Origin: Campylobacteraceae bacterium
GTDB taxonomy: Bacteria > Campylobacterota > Campylobacteria > Campylobacterales > Sulfurovaceae
Length of the DNA stretch: 38,861 bases
Assembly: GCA_027056485.1 (NCBI GenBank)
Contig: JALUKQ010000143.1
Span: 13,778-52,638, forward strand
Direction: 5' to 3'
Every line of letters starts with the position of its first letter. Position 1 is the stretch's first letter. The notes beneath the pieces were generated by a model. The model worked only from the letters and a program-made list of their open reading frames with translations. It made no database searches and was not told where the DNA came from. This document shows positions 4,825 to 19,999 of this stretch, one piece after another. A program made the translations under genes and the position numbers.

Positions 4825-6147
4825 GTGAGCGATGTCGATTTAGTCTTAAAGCACTTAAAAAGTAACAATGTTTTTCTAACTGGTGGAGCTGGTGTAGGTA
4901 AAAGCTATACCACTACTGAAATCATAAGGCTTTATCGTTCTCAAACAGACGAACAAGTGGTTGCTTTGGGTTCAACTGGGGTGAGTGCTGTAAACATTGG
5001 TGGGTATACCATTCACAGTTTTTTTGCTTTTGGAATCTCTTCAAACTTTGAAGAGCTTGACCAAAATGACAAACGTTCACGCTCACGACTTGCTGAACTC
5101 AAAAAGATTTTAAAAGCAACTGACCTCATCATTATAGATGAAATCTCTATGGTCTCTTCTAACATGATGGAGATGATAAGCTACCGTTTAAGCTCTATGG
5201 GCTACCTAGGAAAGCTTCTTTTTGTAGGAGACTTTTTTCAGCTTCCACCTGTACAGAAGTTTGGACAGAATAGCCCAGATATATTTGGAGAAAAACTCTA
5301 TGCTTTTGAGTCTGACGCTTGGCGAAGCTTTGCTCCTGTGGTTATAGAACTCACCGAAATGAAACGAACTTCTGATGCAGAATTTACCCACATACTCCAT
5401 AAAGTACGTGTAGGTGAGTGTGACCATGAAGTAACCAATTACATGCTTAGACTTACAAATACAGAGATAAAAGATGAGAACCCTACTTTTCTTTTTGGTC
5501 GAAATGCAGAGGTAAATTCTACCAACAAGAGTAAATTAGAGGCTGTAGATGCTGAGGAGCATCTACTTTTTGCTACCTATGAAGAGCATCAAGGCAGAGT
5601 TCATGAAAAACGTTTGGCTTCATGGAAAAAAATGTTACCTGTAGAAGAACAACTTACTCTAAAGGTAGGTGTTCCTGTACTCTTTACCATTAACAAATGG
5701 GGCAAGTATGCCAACGGTGAACGAGGTATTATACAACGTATAGAAGATGAGTACATCGTCGTAGAAAAAGAGGAGATATTTGTACGGGTGGAACGGCATG
5801 ACTTTGACCTTTTAGAGATGCAAAGCGATGAAAATGGGAAAATAAAAAACGTAAAACTAGCAACTATTTCACAGTTTCCACTTAAACTTGCCTACGCTGT
5901 AACCATTCATAAAAGCCAAGGAATGAGCATAGACAACTTGGTCTGTAATGTGGACAATATTTTTGCCCCAAGTCAGTTTTATGTAGCCATCTCACGAGCC
6001 ATTAACCCTAAAAACCTACGATTGGACTTTAACCGTGGAGACTTAACAGGGTATTTAAGGCGAATGGTCAATGTAGACCAACGTGTAGTAGCCTACTATA
6101 CCCAACTGGGTCAAGCCTACGTAACAAATGAAGAGTTACCTTTTTAG
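4825..6147 (+). CDS. Pif1/RecD-like superfamily 1B DNA helicase
   Basis: This 440-aa ATP-dependent helicase starts at GTG 4825, preceded by AAGGG. Walker A is GGAGVGKSYTT (residues 20-30), motif Ia includes STGVSAVNIGGYTIHSFF, Walker B is LIIIDEIS (D104/E105), then FVGDFFQLPP (motif III, Q-P), and near the C-terminus AVTIHKSQGMS (motif V) and VAISRA (motif VI, arginine finger). These are the complete SF1B motifs of Pif1-type enzymes, with the size typical of bacterial Pif1. It probably unwinds DNA 5' to 3' and acts on G-quadruplexes or stalled forks. It is followed almost without gap by the PqiA-like genes, but that link looks positional only. Confidence 0.88.
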   Translation: MSDVDLVLKHLKSNNVFLTGGAGVGKSYTTTEIIRLYRSQTDEQVVALGSTGVSAVNIGGYTIHSFFAFGISSNFEELDQNDKRSRSRLAELKKILKATDLIIIDEISMVSSNMMEMISYRLSSMGYLGKLLFVGDFFQLPPVQKFGQNSPDIFGEKLYAFESDAWRSFAPVVIELTEMKRTSDAEFTHILHKVRVGECDHEVTNYMLRLTNTEIKDENPTFLFGRNAEVNSTNKSKLEAVDAEEHLLFATYEEHQGRVHEKRLASWKKMLPVEEQLTLKVGVPVLFTINKWGKYANGERGIIQRIEDEYIVVEKEEIFVRVERHDFDLLEMQSDENGKIKNVKLATISQFPLKLAYAVTIHKSQGMSIDNLVCNVDNIFAPSQFYVAISRAINPKNLRLDFNRGDLTGYLRRMVNVDQRVVAYYTQLGQAYVTNEELPF

Positions 6148-6148
6148 T

Positions 6149-6781
6149 ATGAAAAATAGTGAATTAGACAACCTCATCATCTGTCATAAATGTCATACGC
6201 TACATGAAAAAGTTCCTCTTAAAGAAGGAGCGAAGGCACTCTGCAGTAAATGTAATATCGTTCTATATAAAAATGACAAACATGTACTAGATAGAACTTT
6301 AGCCTTGGTTATAACAGCATTCATCTCACTAATTGTTGCTTTTGAATTTACCATTGTTACTATTAACATTAATGGTTTAGAGCAGAGTTTAAACCTCACT
6401 TCTCTTTTTATTGTTATACTTGAAAACAAACAATACATAGTAGGGATTATGCTTCTTTTTCTTATTGTTATTTTTCCTTTTATAATTTTAATCTCTATGT
6501 TTTTTCTTATTATATATATGAAAATGGGTAAAGCAGAGTACTTGGTAAGGCGAATACTAATTCTTCTAGCTCATCTTAGACCATGGAGTATGGTTGATAT
6601 ATTTTTTATCTCCCTATTAGTAGCAATGGTTAAACTTTTTGATGTCGCACAAATAGAACTTGGGGTATCTTTTGTTGCTTTTATAATGACACTTTTTTTA
6701 GATGCTATCATCACTAAAAATATTAGTTTTTATGAACTTTGGGAACATCATGACAAAATTTATGGAGCTAATAATGCTTAG
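6149..6781 (+). CDS. PqiA/LetA-like membrane protein, first half-size copy
   Basis: This is a 210-aa inner-membrane protein with an N-terminal zinc ribbon (CHKCH and CSKC, residues about 11-35) and four membrane helices, the unit that occurs twice in E. coli PqiA and YebS/LetA. The start is taken as ATG 6149, just after the helicase stop; an in-frame ATG at 6128 would overlap the helicase gene by 20 bases and has no better ribosome site. The conserved RPWSMVDIF motif of the family is present. With the next gene it would form a heteromeric equivalent of the two-domain PqiA. It likely hands lipid to, or anchors, the MCE protein encoded downstream. The PqiA family call is confident; the substrate is unknown. 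Confidence 0.85.
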   Translation: MKNSELDNLIICHKCHTLHEKVPLKEGAKALCSKCNIVLYKNDKHVLDRTLALVITAFISLIVAFEFTIVTININGLEQSLNLTSLFIVILENKQYIVGIMLLFLIVIFPFIILISMFFLIIYMKMGKAEYLVRRILILLAHLRPWSMVDIFFISLLVAMVKLFDVAQIELGVSFVAFIMTLFLDAIITKNISFYELWEHHDKIYGANNA

Positions 6782-7379
6782 AAAAAGAAGACATTTTACA
6801 CGTTGCCATATCTGTGAAGCTGTCAATTATGATAATAAAAAAAATATAAACTGTAGACGCTGTCAATCTAAAATACATAAACCAAAACATATCTCTTACC
6901 ACAAAACATTGGCTTTTTTAATCACAGCTATCATACTCTATATCCCAGCCAATCTCTACCCCATTCTCATAAGTAAACAGTTTGGTATAGTTACGGAGAG
7001 TACCATTATGGGTGGTATTTTACACCTTTGGGAGCATGGCTCTTACCCTATTGCTATTATTATTTTAGTGGCTTCTGTTTTTGTTCCTATATTAAAATTT
7101 TTATTTATAATCTATTTACTATTATCAAGTAAGTATAATGTTAAATCATCAAAAGTTGATAAACACAAACTTTTTTACATTACAGAAGCCATAGGACCAT
7201 GGTCAATGATAGACGTATTTGTAGTACTTATACTCTCAGTACTCATACATTTTTCTGGTGTGCAAATCTATCCAGGTATAGGGGCAACAGCCTTTGCACT
7301 AATGGTCTTTTTTACCATGCTCTCTGCTTTGTCATTTGATACTAGATTAATTAAAAAGAGGTTCAATGCAAAAATATAA
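6774..7379 (+). CDS. PqiA/LetA-like membrane protein, second half-size copy
   Basis: The start is ATG 6774, with GGAG seven bases upstream (GGAGCTAATAATG) and an 8-base overlap with the preceding gene; an earlier ATG at 6702 lies inside that gene. The 201-aa product has a zinc ribbon (CHIC, CRRC), the PqiA signature ILYIPANLYPI, four membrane helices, and GPWSMIDVFVV near the end. It pairs with the first copy to rebuild the two-lobed PqiA fold. It overlaps the MCE gene by 14 bases, so the operon is translationally coupled. Confidence 0.87.
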   Translation: MLRKRRHFTRCHICEAVNYDNKKNINCRRCQSKIHKPKHISYHKTLAFLITAIILYIPANLYPILISKQFGIVTESTIMGGILHLWEHGSYPIAIIILVASVFVPILKFLFIIYLLLSSKYNVKSSKVDKHKLFYITEAIGPWSMIDVFVVLILSVLIHFSGVQIYPGIGATAFALMVFFTMLSALSFDTRLIKKRFNAKI

Positions 7380-9027
7380 TACTCCTAAAGTTAAAGAATC
7401 AAAAAGTATTCAAATATTAACAACCATATGGTTGGTACCTTTTTTAGCCATGATTATAGCTTTATGGTTGGCTTTTCAGTACTACACAAAATTAGGTCCT
7501 ACTATTCAGATATCATTTGAGTCAAATGCTGGACTTATTGCCAACCAAAGTCAAATTAAACTACGTAATGTAACTGTTGGTATGGTAACTAAGATATCAC
7601 TCTCTAAAGATGGAGAAGGTATCATAGTTGAAGCTAGAATGAATAAAGAGGTCAGCGACTATCTCAATGATAAATCCAAGTTTTGGATTGTACATGCCGA
7701 TGTAGGTTCTCATGGAGTCTCAGGTTTAGATACTTTGGTTTCGGGCTCATATATAGAATTATATGGAGTAAAAGAAGAAGAGACTAAAAAGCAGTTTGAA
7801 GGGTTAGAAAAACCTTATATGGATCGTGAAGCAAAGGGTGAGTACTACCTTCTAGCAGCTCCCAACTCTTATAATATTACCGATGGCTCAAACGTCTACT
7901 ACCGTATGCTTAAAGTTGGACGTGTTGAACATGTGGGAATAGCACCAAATGGAAAACAGATTAATTTTACAGTTTTTGTTAAAAATGATTATAGTAAATA
8001 TGTCAATGAAAAAAGTAGATTTTATGCAAGTAGCACGGTACAAGTAGATTTGTCCCAAGGTAAACTTGATATTAGTATAGCCTCTATCTCACAAATTGTT
8101 CATGGGGGAATCTCTATTTACACTCCTGTACAAACCATTCATCCAGAATTAAACAGTACAATCTCTAAAGATACAGTTTTTCCTCTCTATAAAAACTTAT
8201 CAGAGATGAAAGAAAAACATCTTATGACGGGTATTGACAATAAAATCTATAAGTTTAATTTTAAAAACAGTATCAACAAACTTGAAATCGGCTCACCAGT
8301 AGAGTTTAATGGTTTCCAAGTTGGATATGTTACCGATATAGATAGTCATTTTAATGAAGCAAATCAGAGTATTAAGTCTGATGTATATGCCATTATACAT
8401 ACCAAAGCATTTACAGGTATTTCAAGCAAAAACAAGGGCTCTGAGATGATAAAAGCACTTGTACACAATGGACTAAAAGCTCAACTTAACTCAAACATAC
8501 CTATGATAGGCTCTAAGTTTATTGACTTAATCTTTAAATCTAATCAGAACAATCAACTTTTAGCAGATAATAATTTTACACTATTTCCTACTATAGAGTC
8601 AACAAAAGAGTTAACAATTATGGAAGAAGTAAAAAAAGTTGTTGTAAAAATAGAAAAACTTGAACTTGAAAAGCTCTTAGCTTCAGCAACCAAACTACTA
8701 GATCAAAATCAAAAACCTGTCAATGACATTTTAAAAGATTTAAGAAAAACCATTAATCATTTTGATACTACCGTTCAAAATTTAAATAAAGTTACTGAGC
8801 AAGATGCTCTACAGACATTACCAGATGATATTCAAAGTACATTGACACAACTAACAGCAACACTTGAAGAGATACAAACACTTAGTAAAGATTATAATGC
8901 AGACTCACTATTTGCTTCTGAACTCTCTATAACACTAAAAGAGTTAACAGCAACGGCTGAATCTATGGGAATTATTAGCCATAAACTTGAGAGAAAAACA
9001 AATGCACTATTACTAGGAGATGATTAA
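7366..9027 (+). CDS. PqiB-like MCE protein with three MCE domains
   Basis: This 553-aa protein is close to E. coli PqiB in size. One N-terminal membrane helix (residues 17-41, TIWLVPFLAMIIALWLAF) is followed by three MCE domains: about 46-140 (GLIANQSQIKLRNVTVGMV), about 155-265 (NVYYRMLKVGRVEHVG) and about 285-395 (GSPVEFNGFQVGYVTDI). Residues 410-545 are helical and likely form the needle-like coiled coil that spans the periplasm. The family moves phospholipids between inner and outer membranes. It overlaps the preceding PqiA-like gene and its stop overlaps the lipoprotein start, a classic pqiABC arrangement. Confidence 0.9.
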   Translation: MQKYNTPKVKESKSIQILTTIWLVPFLAMIIALWLAFQYYTKLGPTIQISFESNAGLIANQSQIKLRNVTVGMVTKISLSKDGEGIIVEARMNKEVSDYLNDKSKFWIVHADVGSHGVSGLDTLVSGSYIELYGVKEEETKKQFEGLEKPYMDREAKGEYYLLAAPNSYNITDGSNVYYRMLKVGRVEHVGIAPNGKQINFTVFVKNDYSKYVNEKSRFYASSTVQVDLSQGKLDISIASISQIVHGGISIYTPVQTIHPELNSTISKDTVFPLYKNLSEMKEKHLMTGIDNKIYKFNFKNSINKLEIGSPVEFNGFQVGYVTDIDSHFNEANQSIKSDVYAIIHTKAFTGISSKNKGSEMIKALVHNGLKAQLNSNIPMIGSKFIDLIFKSNQNNQLLADNNFTLFPTIESTKELTIMEEVKKVVVKIEKLELEKLLASATKLLDQNQKPVNDILKDLRKTINHFDTTVQNLNKVTEQDALQTLPDDIQSTLTQLTATLEEIQTLSKDYNADSLFASELSITLKELTATAESMGIISHKLERKTNALLLGDD

Positions 9028-9575
9028 TGAAAACTCTATTAACCTTATTATTTTTACTACTAACAGTAGGATGTGGTACGAAAAGCTACTATACTTTAGG
9101 AGATAATCTCTCTATAGAGTCTACTGATACCTATAAAGAGAATATAGCTGTAGTTAGAGTTGAGGTACCTAAATATTTAGAAGAGTTTAAACTTGTAAGA
9201 CAAACTACTCCTTATAATGTAGAAATTATAGACAAAGCCAACTGGCTTACACCCATGCAAAAGAGGCTAACTGATGTACTTATAGATTACTTACAACAAT
9301 CTATGAATAATCCTAATGTCCATCTATACCCTTGGGACAGTAGCAACAAAGATAAAAAAAGAGTCTCTGTACGTATTAAAAAATTTATTGCGTACAACAA
9401 TGATGTTATATTAAAAGCTGACTACAAAATACATAACTTAGAGACCAATACTATAAAGTCTGAACTATTTAAAACCAGCGTTAAAACAGATGGTACTTTA
9501 GATGGAATGATGGCTTCTATGGAAAAAGCCTATTTAGAACTTGCTACAAACATTAAAAATAATATTATAAAATAA
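9027..9575 (+). CDS. PqiC-like outer-membrane lipoprotein (ABC-type transport auxiliary lipoprotein)
   Basis: The 182-aa product has a lipoprotein signal peptide with lipobox LTVGC (C16), followed by KSYYTLGD, the usual beginning of PqiC/DUF330 auxiliary lipoproteins. Its start overlaps the stop of the MCE gene by one base (TAATG). It should sit in the outer membrane and dock the end of the PqiB tunnel. Length matches the family, and it closes the four-gene lipid-transport operon. Confidence 0.85.
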   Translation: MKTLLTLLFLLLTVGCGTKSYYTLGDNLSIESTDTYKENIAVVRVEVPKYLEEFKLVRQTTPYNVEIIDKANWLTPMQKRLTDVLIDYLQQSMNNPNVHLYPWDSSNKDKKRVSVRIKKFIAYNNDVILKADYKIHNLETNTIKSELFKTSVKTDGTLDGMMASMEKAYLELATNIKNNIIK

Positions 9576-11577: not shown

Positions 11578-11838
11578 TTAATTCCCATAATGAAATCTAC
11601 AAGCTATAACATTTATTTGCTCATCAAAAACTTCATAAACCAAACGATGTTCTTGATTGATACGTCGTGACCAAGCACCTTGAAGTTCATATTTTAAAGG
11701 TTCAGGTTTTCCTGTTCCTTCATAGGGAGTTCTTTTTATCTCTTTTAATAAATTGTTGATTTTTTTGAGTAGCTTTTTGTCATATTGTTGCCAATAGCAG
11801 TAGTCATCCCATGCTTCATCTGTAAAAAGAAGATTCAT
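11578..11838 (-). CDS. yoeB: YoeB-family toxin (ribosome-dependent mRNA interferase)
   Basis: This 86-aa RelE-superfamily toxin aligns along its whole length with E. coli YoeB (DDYCYWQQYDKK, KINNLLKEIKRTPYEGTGKPEPLK, WSRRINQEHRLVY, ACRFHY). The catalytic residues E46, R65, H83 and the final Y84 are all in place, so it should be active. YoeB toxins cleave mRNA in the ribosomal A site. Its ATG overlaps the antitoxin stop by one base, so the two are co-translated. Confidence 0.95.
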   Translation of the reverse strand: MNLLFTDEAWDDYCYWQQYDKKLLKKINNLLKEIKRTPYEGTGKPEPLKYELQGAWSRRINQEHRLVYEVFDEQINVIACRFHYGN

Positions 11839-12089
11839 TACTCAAGTAACTCTCTTTGTGTGACTTTCCCTGCTCTTGCACTTGCTAATGAGTTCAGTAG
11901 ACGCTCTCTGTTTTTAGGTGATGAGAGTAGATAATTGGTCTCTTTCATAGCGTTGTAACTATCAAGTGAAATAATCACAACATTCTCTCCATTTTTACGG
12001 TTAACAATGACCTCTTCACTATCTGCATAGACTGAATCAAATAGTGACTTTAGATTGTTTCTTGCTTCTGTAAAATTGACTACTTGCAT
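11838..12089 (-). CDS. yefM: YefM-family antitoxin (Phd/YefM)
   Basis: The start is ATG 12089, because AAAGGAG lies five bases upstream; an ATG at 12110 would add seven residues. The resulting 83 aa match E. coli YefM in length. The N-terminal Phd/YefM DNA-binding fold (VVNFTEARNNLKSLFDSV, VIVNRKNGENVVIISL) is followed by a toxin-neutralising tail (ETNYLLSSPKNRERLL). It should repress its own promoter, with YoeB as corepressor. Confidence 0.94.
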   Translation of the reverse strand: MQVVNFTEARNNLKSLFDSVYADSEEVIVNRKNGENVVIISLDSYNAMKETNYLLSSPKNRERLLNSLASARAGKVTQRELLE

Positions 12090-12114
12090 AAAAACTCCTT
12101 TATGTTCCATATAT

Positions 12115-12186: not shown

Positions 12187-14319
12187 CTACAACAAGTAAG
12201 CAGGTGTACAAAGCTCTACTTTTTTCCCTTTTTGCTCCATAACTATAATATCAATAGCATCACCAACACTGTATCGCTCACCAAGATTATTTACACGCTC
12301 TTTAGCAACTTTAGAGATATGGAGCAGAGCATCAAAACCATCTGGCATCTCTATAAACATTCCAAACTCAACTATCTTCTTAATTTTACCAGCATATTGT
12401 TTGTTTACTTCATATACCATCTGTTTTTTAACAGGTGCAGAAGTAATAGCATCTATAAACTCTTTTGCTCCATCAACATCTTCTTTTGAAGAACCTGTAA
12501 TTTTAACAGCATTGGTATCACGGTCAATATCTATACTTACACCATACTTTTCGATAATCTCACGAATGGTTCCCCCACCCTTACCAATGATAGCAGGCAC
12601 ATGACTTCCATCTACAGAGAACTGTACCGTAGAAGGTAAAGCTTGACTTGAAGGCATGGTTTTAAGAGACTCTTCCATTATATTTAAAATATGAAGTCTA
12701 CCCTCTTTTGCTTGGAAGAGTGCTTCTTTTAAGACATCTGCTTCTATTCCACCCAGTTTAATATCCATCTGCATAGCTGTTACACCATCTTCGGTACCTG
12801 TGATTTTAAAATCCATATCACCATCATGGTCTTCTAGTCCCATAATATCAGTAAGAACACAGTTTTTTGTACCATCAGTTACCAGCCCCATTGCGATACC
12901 AGCAACAAGCTTAGAAGTCTCTACCTCTGCAGCTCTAAGAGCTAAGGAACCACCACATACCGTTGCCATAGATGAAGAACCATTTGATTCTAAAATCTCA
13001 GAAACCAAACGTACTGTTCCATCTCTATTTAAATCAAGTGTTGGCTCTAAACCTCTTTTTCCAAGATTACCATGACCCAACTCTCTACGCCCTGGAGCTC
13101 TGGCTGGTTTTGCTTCACCCACTGAAAAACCAGGGAAGTTGTAATGAACCATAAATGTTTCATATAATGCACTTTTTGTACCTATAAGGTCATAGGACTG
13201 AGCAGCTTTCATGTCACCGAGTGTTGCTGTAACTAAAGCTTGTGTCTGACCACGAGTAAAGAGACAAGAACCATGAACCGAAGGTAAAATATTGATATCA
13301 ATATCAATAGGACGAACTTCATTTAAAGCTCTTCCATCTGCTCGAACTGATTTGTCGAGAATAAGTGAACGAACTACAGATTTTTTATAAGCTTCTAACA
13401 TTTTAGAAACCAACTCTTTATCTGCTTCTTCACCTTTAGCTTCTAATGCTTCCATAATGGTTGTTCGTACATCTTTTAAAGCTTGACTTCTCTCACTCTT
13501 AGCCATAGATTGAACAGCCAAAGAGACAGCTTCTGCATAGTTCTCCTCTATAAATTTATATAAATTATCATCTGCTTTATCTTCTGCAATCTCTACAGCT
13601 ATCTCTTCTTTTTTAGCTATTTTAAAATCATTATCATATGCTGATGATGCTACTTCAATAGCTGTTTGAGCAATATCAATTATCTCTAAAAGCTCATCTT
13701 CTTCCAGTTCATTAGTCTGCTGAACATGCTCCTCTTGCGTTGCATGAACACACATCTCTATCATTAAGATATCTGAACCAGACCCAACTACCAAAAGGTC
13801 TAAAGAAGAATCTTCTTGCTCTAAAAGTGTTGGATTGATTAATACTTCATCTCCAATCTTACCTAAGCGAACAGCTGCTACTACTTGATTGACAGGAATA
13901 TCAGAAGTATAAAGTGCTGCAGAAGCTGCATGCATAGCTGCTACTTGCATATCTACAGCTGGGTCTGAACTTAAAACAGTAATACTAATCACCACAGGAT
14001 TATGAAATCCTTTAGGAAAAAGTGGTCTTAAACTTCTATCGACTATTCTTGAAGTCAACGTCTCAAAATCACCTGGCTTAGTCTCTCTTTTTATGAATCC
14101 ACCAGGGATTTTTGCTGCTGCATAAGTCTTTTCAACATATTGTACAGTTAATGGTAAAAAATCTTCATCTACTGGTTTTGGGTCAATGGCTACTGCTGCT
14201 AAAAGCACAGCATCTCCACAATGGTAAAGAACAGCTCCACTTGCTTGTTTTGCTACTTTATTAAATTGATATCGCTCTTCTAGGTTATTACAACTCACTA
14301 CTATATTTTGTTCATTCAT
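12187..14319 (-). CDS. pnp: polyribonucleotide nucleotidyltransferase (PNPase)
   Basis: This 710-aa enzyme degrades RNA 3' to 5' by phosphorolysis and is part of RNA turnover complexes. Two RNase PH-like cores flank an all-helical linker; conserved blocks include FLPLTVQYVEKTYAAAKIPGGF, TLTSRIVDRSLRPLFPKGF, RAPGRRELGHGNL and the active-site region DIMGLEDHDGDMDFK. The C-terminus carries a KH domain (VPAIIGKGGGTIREI) and an S1 domain ending at VELCTPAYLL. The start overlaps the stop of the upstream phosphoribosyltransferase-like gene by eight bases. Confidence 0.97.
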   Translation of the reverse strand: MNEQNIVVSCNNLEERYQFNKVAKQASGAVLYHCGDAVLLAAVAIDPKPVDEDFLPLTVQYVEKTYAAAKIPGGFIKRETKPGDFETLTSRIVDRSLRPLFPKGFHNPVVISITVLSSDPAVDMQVAAMHAASAALYTSDIPVNQVVAAVRLGKIGDEVLINPTLLEQEDSSLDLLVVGSGSDILMIEMCVHATQEEHVQQTNELEEDELLEIIDIAQTAIEVASSAYDNDFKIAKKEEIAVEIAEDKADDNLYKFIEENYAEAVSLAVQSMAKSERSQALKDVRTTIMEALEAKGEEADKELVSKMLEAYKKSVVRSLILDKSVRADGRALNEVRPIDIDINILPSVHGSCLFTRGQTQALVTATLGDMKAAQSYDLIGTKSALYETFMVHYNFPGFSVGEAKPARAPGRRELGHGNLGKRGLEPTLDLNRDGTVRLVSEILESNGSSSMATVCGGSLALRAAEVETSKLVAGIAMGLVTDGTKNCVLTDIMGLEDHDGDMDFKITGTEDGVTAMQMDIKLGGIEADVLKEALFQAKEGRLHILNIMEESLKTMPSSQALPSTVQFSVDGSHVPAIIGKGGGTIREIIEKYGVSIDIDRDTNAVKITGSSKEDVDGAKEFIDAITSAPVKKQMVYEVNKQYAGKIKKIVEFGMFIEMPDGFDALLHISKVAKERVNNLGERYSVGDAIDIIVMEQKGKKVELCTPAYLL

Positions 14320-15007
14320 TATCTATCTTTCCTTTTTCATATGTATTCATTACATTTTTCATTATTTTATCTATCTCTTCAAAACCAAAAGGTTCTAACT
14401 CTTCATAGTAATACTCTACAGAGATATAGTCATCTATCTTGTGTGGACAAAAAATATTGTCACATATAGTTAGTAAACTTTTATAAACAACATTGTCTAA
14501 AATAGGGACTGCTATAAAGATGTTTTTTGCACCTAAAGATATGGCTGTCTTAACAGCCGACATCATCGTTAACCCTGTCTCCACACACTCATCGGTCAAT
14601 ATAACATATTTGTCATTTAAATCTTGTAACTCCAATCCATAACGATATTTATCTATATGACTTAAAATATTTTTTTTATACTTAATATACGCCTCTGCAT
14701 AAATATAATCTTTTGAGATATTAAAGGCAGTGGTCAATGCTTTATGAATAATAACCTCTTCAGTCTCTCCAACCATGGCAATGGTTAACTCTTTGTTAAC
14801 ATTAGAGTAGATAGGTTCCGTCAGAAGAATATCCATAGAACAGCCAATTTTCTTAGCAATCTGCTCAGCAAAATAGACCCCACCTTCACTAACAGATAAA
14901 ACAATAATATTATCTAAAGTAGTGACATCTAGAGAAAATTCAGTAATCAACTGTTCTGATGCATCTTTCCTATTCTTAAAAAGTATCTGGTTTTTTTCTT
15001 CTGTCAT
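14312..15007 (-). CDS. phosphoribosyltransferase-like protein upstream of pnp
   Basis: This 231-aa protein has a type I phosphoribosyltransferase fold: the PRPP loop is VILTDECVETGLTMMSA (residues 135-151; D139/E140 and ETG 143-145), and IIVLSVSEGGVYFAEQIAKK is the first strand-loop. The hood region and C-terminus (about residues 185-231) are unlike hpt, apt or upp, so the substrate base cannot be named. It overlaps pnp by eight bases and lies just after the MCE gene, suggesting co-transcription with RNA turnover. It may be a nucleobase salvage or regulatory PRTase. Confidence 0.75.
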   Translation of the reverse strand: MTEEKNQILFKNRKDASEQLITEFSLDVTTLDNIIVLSVSEGGVYFAEQIAKKIGCSMDILLTEPIYSNVNKELTIAMVGETEEVIIHKALTTAFNISKDYIYAEAYIKYKKNILSHIDKYRYGLELQDLNDKYVILTDECVETGLTMMSAVKTAISLGAKNIFIAVPILDNVVYKSLLTICDNIFCPHKIDDYISVEYYYEELEPFGFEEIDKIMKNVMNTYEKGKIDNE

Positions 15008-15019
15008 CTCTATCTTTTA

Positions 15020-16486
15020 CTATTTAGTACCTGAACTTGCAGCAGTTCCTAAAAGGTTTTTTAAATCATTATCAACAAAACTAACACCTAAACCAGCAGA
15101 CATGCTGTTTGCTTTACTATTCAAGATATTGTTTGCACTTACATAGGCATTTATATGTTTAAAAAACTGATAACGCATGGTTGTGGTCAAATTTAAATTA
15201 TTTCCACGTATGTCATTAACAGCATTAAAGTCAAACATGTTTGCACTAACCTTTAAAGTATCATTAAGAGCAAAATAATCTACACCAAAACCACCTTGTC
15301 CCTCTATAAGACCTACCCTAAATAGTAAATCATCAAAACGTTTACCATATTGTGCAGAGAGTAAAAAGTCACCACTCTCATGTTTTTTATTTCCTGCATA
15401 TCCTTGTGCAAATTTTGAATCAGCTTCAAAACTAGGTCCGGATGTTACGCCAAGCATATAGTAACGAGTAGGATCGGGTTTAAGTGTTAAGTTTAGATGT
15501 GACTTTGAGTAACCACCATCATCATAAACTTCATCTGATCTCATCTCTACATGTAGTTCACTTTTAATCATACCATCCAAATATTTATCAACTTTCTGCA
15601 TGGTTTCACTGCTTTCTGAAAAGAAGCCATCAACTGAAGTTAATGCACTAGAAAGTTTATCTTTATTACCATCTATTGTATCATTCAAGTTATCTTCAAG
15701 TTTTACAAACTTATCTATTGCTGTTGGTAACTTTGAATCCAATGTAGAACTTACACCCTCAAGATATTTTGTAATGGCATCTAGCCTTGCCATTATTTGA
15801 GGTAAATCTTTATTTATACCTTTACCAACTTTTGAAAACTCTTGTGAGGTTATACTTATCTCATCACTCATATTTGCAAATTTATTAATAGTATTATTTG
15901 TATTAGTAAGAATCTCATGAATGGTTTGGTTATCTTCTTTTGAAATAGAAGCCAATAGTTCAGAGAACTCTCTTAAATTAGCTAAAGTATCTTGAATATC
16001 ACTCTTTCCACCACTATTAAAAATATCTCTTATATCATGTACTAAAAATTTTATCTCTTGAAATGCTTCATCTGCTGCAGTTGATGCATCAGCGATAGAA
16101 GAGACCTTCTCCTCTTTTGCTAATAGAGCATTTGGCTTTAAAGTTTCTGTAGAGATACCTGGTTTAATATCTAAAAACTTTCCACCTAAAAGAGAGTCTT
16201 GAGAGATGACTATAATAGAGTCTAAAGGAATTTTAACTCCCTCATCAATCATCAGTTTAGTAACTACATCATTATCTAAAAGAGTAACCTTTTCAACATA
16301 ACCAATATCAACACCTTTTAGTTTAACTTTTGCTTTATCTTTCAGACCTGAGCCATCATTAATCTTTGCAGAGATAGAGTAACTCTTTTTAAACAAATTA
16401 TCAAAACTACTCAATTGAGAGAGTAAGCCAAAAAGAAAAAAGAGTGACAATGTAATAAAAAGACCAACTTTCGCTTCTGTTTTCAT
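15020..16486 (-). CDS. MlaD-like MCE protein with a C-terminal beta-rich (barrel-like) domain
   Basis: The start is ATG 16486 (MKTEAKVGLF), five bases after the lptD stop and preceded by AAGG; an earlier ATG at 16540 lies within lptD. The 488-aa product has an N-terminal anchor (residues about 8-27), one MCE domain (about 38-115, SGLKDKAKVKLKGVDIGYV), a long helical middle (about 125-300) and a final 170 residues of alternating beta strands (SHLNLTLKPDP, YYMLGVTSGPSF, DFLLSAQYGKRFDDLLFRVG, TTTMRYQFFKHINAYVS) like an outer-membrane barrel. It would be a single protein reaching from inner to outer membrane. The MCE call is firm; the barrel is inference. Confidence 0.82.
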   Translation of the reverse strand: MKTEAKVGLFITLSLFFLFGLLSQLSSFDNLFKKSYSISAKINDGSGLKDKAKVKLKGVDIGYVEKVTLLDNDVVTKLMIDEGVKIPLDSIIVISQDSLLGGKFLDIKPGISTETLKPNALLAKEEKVSSIADASTAADEAFQEIKFLVHDIRDIFNSGGKSDIQDTLANLREFSELLASISKEDNQTIHEILTNTNNTINKFANMSDEISITSQEFSKVGKGINKDLPQIMARLDAITKYLEGVSSTLDSKLPTAIDKFVKLEDNLNDTIDGNKDKLSSALTSVDGFFSESSETMQKVDKYLDGMIKSELHVEMRSDEVYDDGGYSKSHLNLTLKPDPTRYYMLGVTSGPSFEADSKFAQGYAGNKKHESGDFLLSAQYGKRFDDLLFRVGLIEGQGGFGVDYFALNDTLKVSANMFDFNAVNDIRGNNLNLTTTMRYQFFKHINAYVSANNILNSKANSMSAGLGVSFVDNDLKNLLGTAASSGTK

Positions 16487-16490
16487 AGTT

Positions 16491-18551
16491 TTATTTACCT
16501 TGTGATGAAAATTTTTGTTCAATACTTTGAGATATACCACCTAAAGGATTTAGGTTCAATTCAAAGTAAAGCATGTTATTTCTAAACATGCCATCTAGAT
16601 TAGGAATACGTTCCTGTCCTATACTCAACTTTGCACCCCAACACTTCTGTTTGTGAGCCCAACCTATATACCATTGATGATTAAATGATTTTTCTAAATC
16701 ATAATCATAGTTGAAAAACCATTGATTATGCTTATTATAATTATGAATGAACGATGCATTTATAAAACTTGTTTTCTCTTGTTCAACCTCAAAATCATAA
16801 TTATAAAAATGTGTAAGCATTATATCATAGTTGCTTTGATTATAACCCAAAGAAGTAGTAAGAGAATGAATTTCATCCTTATCTAATGAATAAAATAGAT
16901 TACTATATAGGTTTAAGTTTTCTCCATCATACGAAAATTCACTATTAACATCTCCTCTATTTAACTTCTCTTCAGGAAAATGTATCCACGCCAAACGATG
17001 ATAAAAATTCATATCCAAATCACTATTATAATAATATTGACTCAAACCTAAAGATATACTCTCTTTTTTTGTTTGAGTTACAAATAGTTCTTGTTTTTCA
17101 GAGCGTAAGTCTGCATACTCAACAGGGTTCTCCTTTTCAAAACTTGGTTTTGTATAGATAATCGAAGGATGTATAGTATGTACATTCTCCCCATACTCTT
17201 TTATAAGGTCTGAAGACAACTCCATAGTATGGAAGTTACGATAATAACGATAATTATCACTGTCATAACCAAGATTTGAAAAGTTTACTTGACTCAAATA
17301 TAAATTTTCTGATAGTGAAAAGTTTAAATAATCATCAAAAAATGAGTCATAATAAGTAATAGGTAAATCAAGCTCAGACTGATATGCTCTACTACCTTTA
17401 GTCCTTGTATAGTTATGTAGTTTTGCATCAAAAGTATAAAAAATCTTATCCATAAAAAGCTTATTCATATATTTATGATAATGCAAAGTAGGTAACTCTT
17501 GTAAGGTTTCACTGTTGTCATCTTTACTTGTATCTATATAATATTTCGCATATAGACCCAAATAATTCTCTTCATCATAAACAAAAGCATTCAGACGAGA
17601 CTCAATAAGATTAGAGTTAATTAAAGAGGATGCAGTATCTTTTTGTACATTTAAGTACTCTAAATCATTTAAATAAGTTGCATTAACATAAAATCCACTT
17701 TTATAATCATCCAAATCTAAAAAATTAGTAGAGTTATAAAGAAATTCAAAACCATAATGTTCTCTGTGCAAATTCTGCTTATCTATGTAAGAATCAAAGT
17801 TTTTAAAGTATCCTGTTGTAAACTCTCCAGATGAGTGATTAGAATCTACAAAACGTGTAGTAACATGAGTCCCCATACCCCTACTTGTACGAATTTGAGG
17901 ATTAAACTCTATATCAATATTGTCTGTAGGAGCATAGTAGAAAGGTTGCTCATAAGCAAGCCCCTCAGTATCTGAAAATTTAAAATGGGGGAAAAGAAGT
18001 CCTGTTGTTCGTTTGTCAACTGTAGGAAAAGCCATAAAAGGTAAAGCAAGAATTTTTCTATTAAAAAAAATTAACTCTACATCCTTTAAAGTAATAAAGT
18101 CTTTATCTTTCCTATAGTAAGCCTCCGAAAAACCTATCGTCCAATCAGGATTTGCTTTATTACAAGAAGAGAGTTTACTATTATATATTTTATAATTTTC
18201 ATCTGTTTTTGTTGCTTTTATAGCATCTATCCAAAGGTTCTCTTCTGTCGTTAAAAAAAGCTTTTTAAACTCCACTGCCTTAGTAGAGGTATCAATAACC
18301 AATTCATTTGAAGAAACTCTATTCTCACTCTCACTTAGCATCTCAACATCACCATTGAGCGTTAATGTTGAACTATTTTTATCATAGGTAGCACTATTTG
18401 ACTTTAACATGGCACCATCATAAAGAATCACCACATCACCTATCGCACTAAAATGATCAGCTGTAGCCTTTACATCTTCTGCAAAAACCTCAATAGTCTC
18501 TTTCCCAAACAGAACAGTAGTTAGTAGTAGAGAGAGGAAAAGAGTACGCAT
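16491..18551 (-). CDS. lptD: LPS-assembly outer-membrane protein LptD
   Basis: This 686-aa protein has a signal peptide (MRTLFLSLLLTTVLFG), an OstA/LptA-like N-terminal beta-jellyroll (residues about 20-150: SATYDKNSSTLTLNGDVEM) and a large barrel rich in aromatic beta strands ending WFFNYDYDLEKSF...LYFELNLNPLGG. LptD with LptE inserts lipopolysaccharide into the outer leaflet. It is shorter than the E. coli protein but normal for Campylobacterota. It starts seven bases after the purD stop and is followed by the MCE gene, so outer-membrane LPS and phospholipid functions are co-transcribed. Confidence 0.92.
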   Translation of the reverse strand: MRTLFLSLLLTTVLFGKETIEVFAEDVKATADHFSAIGDVVILYDGAMLKSNSATYDKNSSTLTLNGDVEMLSESENRVSSNELVIDTSTKAVEFKKLFLTTEENLWIDAIKATKTDENYKIYNSKLSSCNKANPDWTIGFSEAYYRKDKDFITLKDVELIFFNRKILALPFMAFPTVDKRTTGLLFPHFKFSDTEGLAYEQPFYYAPTDNIDIEFNPQIRTSRGMGTHVTTRFVDSNHSSGEFTTGYFKNFDSYIDKQNLHREHYGFEFLYNSTNFLDLDDYKSGFYVNATYLNDLEYLNVQKDTASSLINSNLIESRLNAFVYDEENYLGLYAKYYIDTSKDDNSETLQELPTLHYHKYMNKLFMDKIFYTFDAKLHNYTRTKGSRAYQSELDLPITYYDSFFDDYLNFSLSENLYLSQVNFSNLGYDSDNYRYYRNFHTMELSSDLIKEYGENVHTIHPSIIYTKPSFEKENPVEYADLRSEKQELFVTQTKKESISLGLSQYYYNSDLDMNFYHRLAWIHFPEEKLNRGDVNSEFSYDGENLNLYSNLFYSLDKDEIHSLTTSLGYNQSNYDIMLTHFYNYDFEVEQEKTSFINASFIHNYNKHNQWFFNYDYDLEKSFNHQWYIGWAHKQKCWGAKLSIGQERIPNLDGMFRNNMLYFELNLNPLGGISQSIEQKFSSQGK

Positions 18552-18558
18552 TTAGTTC

Positions 18559-19830
18559 CTATAGAGCTTGATAAGCGATATCTGTTCTACAGTGCTTTCC
18601 AGCAAAATGAACTTGACCTACCAACATATAAGCACGTTGCTGTGCTTCTTTAATAGTGTCACCCAAACCTACACAAACCAGTACTCGACCACCTGTTGCA
18701 TAAAGTTCACCATCTTCACCACGGCTAACTCCTGCGTAAGAGATATGTGCATGCTCTTTAAAAATATCATCATGAACAATATCATCTACAATAATCTGAG
18801 CAGGAGCAGAACTCTTATAAGGGTAATCTTTAGATGCCATAACCACACCTACTGCAAACTTGTCATGAAATTCAACTTCTAAATTTTTAAGGTCGTTGGT
18901 TGCACCTTTATAGAACAAATCAAGAGCCGAAGACTTAAGCAAAGGCATTATCTCCTCACACTCAGGGTCACCAAAACGTACATTGTACTCTAAGATAATT
19001 GGCTCATCATTGACAACCATAACACCAATAAACAATACCCCTTTAAACGGCATACCTTCACTCTTCATTCCCTCTAAAGTAGGAACAATAACACGCTCAT
19101 CTAACTTTTTGTAAATCGCATCATTTACCAAAGGTGTCGGAGCGTAAGCACCCATTCCACCTGTGTTTGGTCCTTGGTCGTCATTGTACAGTCTTTTATG
19201 GTCTTGTGCAGCAGGTAACACCACATAATCTTCACCATCACAAATAGCAAAAACAGAAAGCTCATAACCATCTAAGAACTCTTCTACCACTATAGAAGTT
19301 CCTGCATCACCAAATGAATTTCCTGAAAGCATCTCACCTGCAGCCTTTTTTGCTTCATTATGATTTTGGGCAATAATCACCCCTTTACCACCACAGAGAC
19401 CATCTGCCTTAACCACGATAGGTGCTTCAAGAGTCATAATAAACTTATACGCATCTTCTAAAGAGTCTGTCTCTATATATTTTGCTGTTGGAACATTGTG
19501 ACGAGCTAAAAAATTTTTCATAAAAATTTTAGAACCTTCAAGCTGTGCAGCCTGAGCAGATGGTCCAAATATTTTTAAACCACGCTCTTCAAACAGGTCA
19601 ACAATCCCAGCAACCAAAGGGGCTTCTGGTCCTACTATTGTAAGTTCTACATCATTGGCTTCACAAAAATCAGCCAATTCATTAAAGTCAGAAATCTCTA
19701 AATTTGTACCCAATTCATCTGTAGCACCATTTCCTGGAGCAAAATATAACTTCTCTACTTTTTCATCTTTAGCAAGAGCCATCCCTATAGAATACTCACG
19801 CCCACCAGCACCGATTATTAATACATTCAC
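18559..19830 (-). CDS. purD: phosphoribosylamine-glycine ligase (GAR synthetase)
   Basis: This enzyme joins glycine to 5-phosphoribosylamine in purine synthesis. The start is GTG 19830 (protein MNVLIIGAGGREYSIG), nine bases after GGAG; the longer frame from ATG 19863 would add eleven unconserved residues. The 423-aa product is standard for PurD: N-domain GPEAPLVAGIVD, ATP-grasp VVKADGLCGGKGV, the signature GPNTGGMGAYAP and LEYNVRFGDPE, and a C-domain with GRVLVCVGLG. A 6S-like RNA lies immediately upstream on the same strand. Confidence 0.95.
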   Translation of the reverse strand: MNVLIIGAGGREYSIGMALAKDEKVEKLYFAPGNGATDELGTNLEISDFNELADFCEANDVELTIVGPEAPLVAGIVDLFEERGLKIFGPSAQAAQLEGSKIFMKNFLARHNVPTAKYIETDSLEDAYKFIMTLEAPIVVKADGLCGGKGVIIAQNHNEAKKAAGEMLSGNSFGDAGTSIVVEEFLDGYELSVFAICDGEDYVVLPAAQDHKRLYNDDQGPNTGGMGAYAPTPLVNDAIYKKLDERVIVPTLEGMKSEGMPFKGVLFIGVMVVNDEPIILEYNVRFGDPECEEIMPLLKSSALDLFYKGATNDLKNLEVEFHDKFAVGVVMASKDYPYKSSAPAQIIVDDIVHDDIFKEHAHISYAGVSRGEDGELYATGGRVLVCVGLGDTIKEAQQRAYMLVGQVHFAGKHCRTDIAYQAL

Positions 19831-19999
19831 TACAACACACTCCATTTTTATAATTGACGACATTATACACTATTAACCATAAGGGATAAAATAAAGTAAG
19901 TCTTTTATAAAAAAGATGTATTTTATATAGAGTAATTAAATTTTAAATTGATAGTTACAATTGATAAAATAAAAAGGAGCTAGTGACGTGAGCTGTCTG

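Follow-up and report, generated by a model that had tools for sequence, protein, structure and literature searches.

A long MlaD protein with a predicted outer-membrane-type C-terminal barrel, encoded beside lptD in deep-branching Campylobacterota

Results

The gene at the centre of this analysis is a long mlaD from a Campylobacteraceae bacterium (GTDB family Sulfurovaceae), and the window referred to below is the whole stretch of DNA that was analysed, 38,861 nt of contig JALUKQ010000143.1. The gene occupies 15020..16486 on the minus strand and encodes a protein of 488 aa, which translation, Pfam (MlaD), AlphaFold2 (AF2) and homologues together describe as an MCE protein with a C-terminal ten-stranded barrel. 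A program-made list of open reading frames placed its start at a GTG (16540), but the N-terminus MKTEAKVG is near-invariant across 41 homologues, and the start was therefore assigned to the ATG at 16486; the stop codon ends at 15020. An earlier note, made from the sequence alone, had described a beta-rich C-terminal domain on an MCE protein beside lptD. This proved to be real, as reading frame, Pfam and AF2 agree, and the coding strand is the minus strand.

The neighbouring genes are on the same strand. Upstream, across a gap of 4 bases, is lptD (16491..18551; NCBIfam LptD, E = 8.4e-18, below the curated cut-off), and purD (18559..19863; NCBIfam, E = 2.6e-149) lies 7 bases further upstream. 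Downstream, a gene for a phosphoribosyltransferase-domain protein (14312..15007; Pfam Pribosyltran, 1.9e-10) separates mlaD from pnp (12187..14319; NCBIfam, E = 3e-245), which marks the end of the conserved gene run. The lptD-mlaD neighbourhood is strongly conserved: lptD precedes long mlaD in every Campylobacterota locus with a contig reaching the upstream gene, down to a MlaD identity of ~39%, and pnp is found downstream across the Campylobacterota loci. The phosphoribosyltransferase-domain gene is present in nearly all Sulfurovum-type loci and missing in Nitratiruptor and Hydrogenimonas. Beyond the run, two overlapping small genes at 11578-12110 (minus strand) resemble a YefM-YoeB toxin-antitoxin pair, a sequence impression only.

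Long MlaD begins with a membrane helix (residues 3-31, 16394..16480, minus strand), seen in the AF2 secondary structure and as a hydrophobic stretch conserved in the 41-homologue alignment. The MCE domain that follows (residues 35-110, 16157..16384, minus strand) is the only one in the chain, and matched Pfam MlaD (PF02470) with an E value of 8.5e-16 and 58.4 bits, against a curated cut-off of 25.1. The E. coli-type equivalog TIGR04430 (OM_asym_MlaD, NCBIfam) scored 81.2 bits, short of its cut-off of 135, and the match to Mtu_fam_mce (NCBIfam) was likewise sub-threshold. In a full-length AF2 model of the monomer, built on the 41-sequence alignment, the MCE domain had pLDDT values of mostly 80-90 and its fold matched E. 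coli MlaD (5uw8) in Foldseek with a TM-score of 0.90, normalised to the target. The best Foldseek matches of the full-length model were mycobacterial Mce1 chains. Between MCE domain and barrel is a helical, presumably periplasmic stretch of ~175 residues (approximately 131-307, 15566..16096, minus strand), which is variable in length, was modelled as helices of low confidence (low pLDDT), and is predicted to be tunnel-forming. It weakly matched Mce4_CUP1 (Pfam), and would measure ~26 nm as a single straight helix. AF2, Pfam and Foldseek evidence thus bears out the earlier view of a single chain combining an inner-membrane anchor, a MCE ring domain and a helical part long enough for the periplasm.

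The last ~170 residues had been read in the earlier note as amphipathic strands like those of an outer-membrane protein, and the follow-up strengthened this reading. A ten-stranded barrel was placed at residues 310-472 (15071..15559, minus strand) on the basis of AF2, Foldseek, amphipathicity and invariant columns, the last including F470, and it is followed by a short C-terminal helix at residues 478-486 (15029..15055, minus strand; AF2 and alignment). Modelled alone, the C-terminal domain again formed a barrel, with the ten strands of the full-length model (pLDDT 83.7, pTM 0.73), rather than a compact soluble domain. Hydrophobic and polar residues alternate along the ten strands to a degree that, taken over the alignment, was reached by 0 of 1000 within-strand shuffles on either scale. 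A majority of the best 50 Foldseek matches of the barrel among solved structures were outer-membrane proteins, and matches included OprF, OMPLA, porins, the designed ten-strand membrane barrel TMB10, OpcA, and KdgM; TM-scores by query were all below 0.5, with the soluble nitrobindin barrel similar at 0.49. A search by sequence for a solved relative of the barrel returned a single chance-level match, and no Pfam family was found for it, while two relatives weakly match the TonB-receptor barrel (Pfam).

Outer-membrane barrels have short turns on the periplasmic side and long outer loops, a last strand ending in F, and conservation on the polar face, and these rules were applied to the model. With the N-terminus taken as periplasmic, the AF2 strand limits give turns of 4, 2, 4 and 3 residues on the periplasmic side and outer loops of 5, 22, 2, 13 and 8 residues. 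The last strand, SMSAGLGVSF, has the alternating residues M-A-L-V-F and ends in the invariant F470. The polar face comprises 37% G/S/T/N and 29% charged residues. Conservation leans towards the polar over the hydrophobic face, but since 272 of 5000 permutations (Campylobacterota) and 541 of 5000 (all sequences) reach the observed value, this test was taken as minor support only. As modelled, the C-terminal domain of long MlaD resembles an outer-membrane barrel in topology, in its faces and in its last strand.

A scan of 84,980 genomes for homologues of long MlaD yielded 54 loci, and a search of plasmids for the gene gave 0 matches. Amino acid identity was 64-92% in Sulfurovum-type genomes and 38-42% in Nitratiruptor and Hydrogenimonas MAGs. 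It was 26% in an acidobacterial MAG, 22% in another MAG, and ~24-27% in Negativicutes (36% where the match covered the N-terminal part only). The homologue of Selenomonas (L053) matched query residues 1-419, with an E value of 2e-18 among candidates, and the barrel columns align up to its C-terminal F. The C-terminal helix is missing from the Negativicutes homologues, the chain of which stops at the last F of the barrel. Long mlaD is the last gene of a mlaE-mlaF-mlaD operon in three loci (L052-L054), one of them acidobacterial and two from Negativicutes. A survey of 100 genomes from the window's family found long MlaD in every one of the 19 sampled from its genus, and the other genera gave only weak matches, to proteins of ~300-380 aa.

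Long MlaD of Campylobacterota co-occurs with MlaE and MlaF and shares their ancestry. Of the 19 genomes sampled from the window's genus, 15 encode a stand-alone MlaE (~263 aa, no MlaB part) and the remaining four are 80-87% complete. The gene for this MlaE adjoins acpS in the loci inspected, and the same type occurs in most long-MlaD genomes of Nitratiruptor and Hydrogenimonas. In a tree of 43 MlaE sequences, the stand-alone MlaE grouped with the MlaE of long-MlaD operons of Acidobacteria and Negativicutes, and a support of 100/100 separated it from the MlaBE type. A matching free-standing mlaF follows prmC-DUF4149 in most loci inspected, prmC being named by sequence impression only. Sulfurovum, Nitratiruptor, and Hydrogenimonas therefore have the genes at three conserved places, lptD-mlaD-pnp, mlaE near acpS, and prmC-DUF4149-mlaF, and mlaD, mlaE, and mlaF are read here as the dispersed parts of one ancient system. 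The gene for the DUF4149 membrane protein directly precedes stand-alone mlaF in most barrel-type Campylobacterota (L111, L118, L133-L139), and could specify an accessory part.

In the window's own assembly, which is 87% complete, neither mlaE nor mlaF was found; two close relatives have mlaF. A true loss of mlaE was considered and rejected: matches to the mlaE region of a relative run exactly to the ends of two contigs (C69 and C59), and acpS is absent as well, so the lack of mlaE is attributed to a contig gap. A gap is also the likely cause for mlaF. Next to mlaE in a relative, a sequence of ~100 bases (L084:867-976) matches many sites of the window's genome (G000) on both strands, and represents a dispersed repeat.

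Within the window's genus, 3 of the 19 genomes have MlaA and 4 have MlaC; neither was detected in the window's own, 87% complete, genome. Other genera of the family have, in 11 of 12 loci, a cluster of mlaBE, mlaF, a mlaD specifying ~300-360 aa, and a gene for a PqiC-like lipoprotein. These distributions favour the earlier suggestion that a separate MlaA or PqiC is dispensed with, although the window itself holds a PqiAABC set and MlaA/MlaC or a second Mla cluster persists in a few members of the genus. Given that barrel-type genera and genera with a PqiC-like lipoprotein occur within one family, there are probably two routes of outer-membrane contact, one through a fused barrel and the other through a separate lipoprotein. 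Mpc-like mlaBE-mlaF-mlaD-PqiC-like clusters (L082:2090-5463, L089:3688-7065, L142-L153) are common in the sister genera, and some members of the window's own genus have them too.

Discussion

The barrel-ended design of long MlaD is already published. Grasekamp et al. (2023) described the long MlaD of Veillonella parvula as a membrane helix, a MCE domain, ~150 helical residues, and a C-terminal barrel of ten strands (PMC10665443), so that the novelty of architecture implied by the earlier note falls. In the same work, a barrel construct fractionated with the outer membrane (with TolC) and a helix-MCE construct with the inner membrane; barrels were inferred in 103 MlaD sequences, mainly from diderm Terrabacteria with some Proteobacteria and close phyla, while most known long MlaD proteins are without a complete barrel (PMC10665443). 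In the main text of that paper, Campylobacterota go unnamed except in one reference title. What is added here is a further lineage, the deep-branching Campylobacterota, with an unusual and conserved dispersal of the genes. The Campylobacterota protein shares with that of V. parvula the membrane helix, one MCE domain, ~150-175 helical residues, and a ten-strand barrel. It is homologous to the Negativicutes proteins over most of its length, and has in common with the V. parvula system a MlaE without MlaB and, mostly, no MlaA or MlaC. Unlike the single mlaEFD operon of V. parvula, the Campylobacterota genes are at three loci, with mlaD in the purD-lptD-pnp run, and the protein differs from Negativicutes MlaD by the short helix after the barrel and by the greater length of the loop joining strands 3 and 4.

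The most probable reading, to which we give a probability of about 0.85, is that the gene specifies a long MlaD of the barrel type, working in a transporter of three parts (MlaE-MlaF-MlaD) that would span the envelope, with the barrels of MlaD as its outer-membrane anchors and not as lipid pores. On the model of the Mla family and of the Veillonella work, six MlaD chains would assemble their MCE domains into a ring on MlaE, the inner-membrane permease, and their helices into a hydrophobic tunnel across the periplasm, the mouth of which would be held at the outer membrane by the C-terminal barrels, acting as anchors or docking sites. ATP hydrolysis by MlaF would then power the movement of phospholipid through the tunnel, the most likely direction being inwards from the outer membrane. 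With the tunnel anchored in this way, a MlaC shuttle and a lipoprotein of the MlaA/PqiC type would be unneeded. The idea that one chain bridges the envelope had been raised in the earlier note, and gains support from the combination of an inner-membrane helix and a barrel of outer-membrane type in one protein, and from the localisation of the two halves of the V. parvula protein to the two membranes (PMC10665443).

Two other views of the barrel were weighed. It might be a soluble periplasmic barrel or sheet, similar to a lipocalin or nitrobindin, that holds lipid or docks to a protein, with the chain fixed in the inner membrane only. The nitrobindin match, the 29% of charged residues on the polar face, and the lack of a complete barrel in most known long MlaD (PMC10665443) would fit this. 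However, outer-membrane proteins make up most of the best 50 Foldseek matches, the short-turn/long-loop topology, glycine-rich polar face and last strand with its invariant F470 are of the outer-membrane type, and in Veillonella the homologous domain was recovered together with TolC on fractionation (PMC10665443), all of which make a soluble barrel very unlikely. The earlier note had instead proposed an opening of the chain in the outer membrane, which would make the barrel a lipid-conducting pore, possibly through merged barrels of several chains. Lipid conduction by outer-membrane barrels has precedent elsewhere (LptD), and the fusion of several barrels was raised as a possibility by the Veillonella authors (PMC10665443), but AF2 predicts that each chain closes its own narrow barrel of ten strands with a polar, glycine-rich inner face, for which reason individual barrels are improbable as lipid pores, and the equivalent Veillonella barrel was judged too narrow for lipid by its authors (PMC10665443). 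A conducting barrel is considered very unlikely. That study left open whether the barrel serves as anchor or conduit (PMC10665443).

The earlier note also saw in the position of mlaD beside lptD a link between phospholipid and LPS transport. Adjacency was confirmed, both in the 4-base gap and in the conserved order, but adjacency does not establish functional coupling, since the same run includes purD and pnp, and coupling to LPS transport stays a hypothesis. A physical or regulatory coupling of LptD and MlaD, in which the operon joins LPS insertion with phospholipid removal at one site, would be compatible with an anchored MlaE-MlaF-MlaD transporter, and the pair is adjacent in all Campylobacterota loci where the upstream gene is on the contig. 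Against it, purD and pnp are unrelated to envelope work, loci outside Campylobacterota that show neighbours have mlaE-mlaF beside the gene with no lptD seen, and LptD and MlaD have no domain in common. Such coupling is considered unlikely, and it is equally doubtful that in deep-branching Campylobacterota MlaD is made with LptD and shares its outer-membrane sites of action, coupling LPS insertion to phospholipid removal, the lptD-mlaD pair being the genetic trace of this. The conserved pair nevertheless offers a concrete lead to a possible connection between the transport of LPS and that of phospholipid.

Comparison with other MCE systems places long MlaD among several designs. The E. coli MlaFEDB-MlaC-MlaA system has the same MCE fold and an ABC permease partner, but its MlaD is short and barrel-less, and works with a MlaC shuttle and a MlaA-OmpC complex. 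The Mpc system of Brucella abortus reportedly makes contact with the outer membrane through a separate lipoprotein and not through a fused barrel. Mpc, a chimeric Mla-Pqi system (PMC12436622), also carries out MCE lipid transport, and the sister-genus mlaBE-mlaF-mlaD-PqiC-like clusters look similar to it. Closely related genera present both designs, a barrel fused to MlaD and a short MlaD paired with a distinct PqiC-like lipoprotein, and the role of the barrel as anchor or conduit can therefore be tested by comparing them. Mycobacterial Mce1 also combines a MCE ring with a helical tunnel, but unlike long MlaD it is a heterohexamer with one shared six-strand barrel, to which each chain contributes a single strand (PMC10665443).

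The window contains a second MCE system, a complete PqiA-PqiA-PqiB-PqiC set at 6128-9575 (plus strand), ~5.5 kb from long mlaD, made up of two PqiA half-genes, a PqiB with three MCE domains and a lipoprotein. PqiB is a periplasm-spanning MCE protein, as long MlaD probably is, but this PqiB has three MCE domains per chain and no barrel, PqiC is separate, and PqiA takes the place of the ABC transporter.
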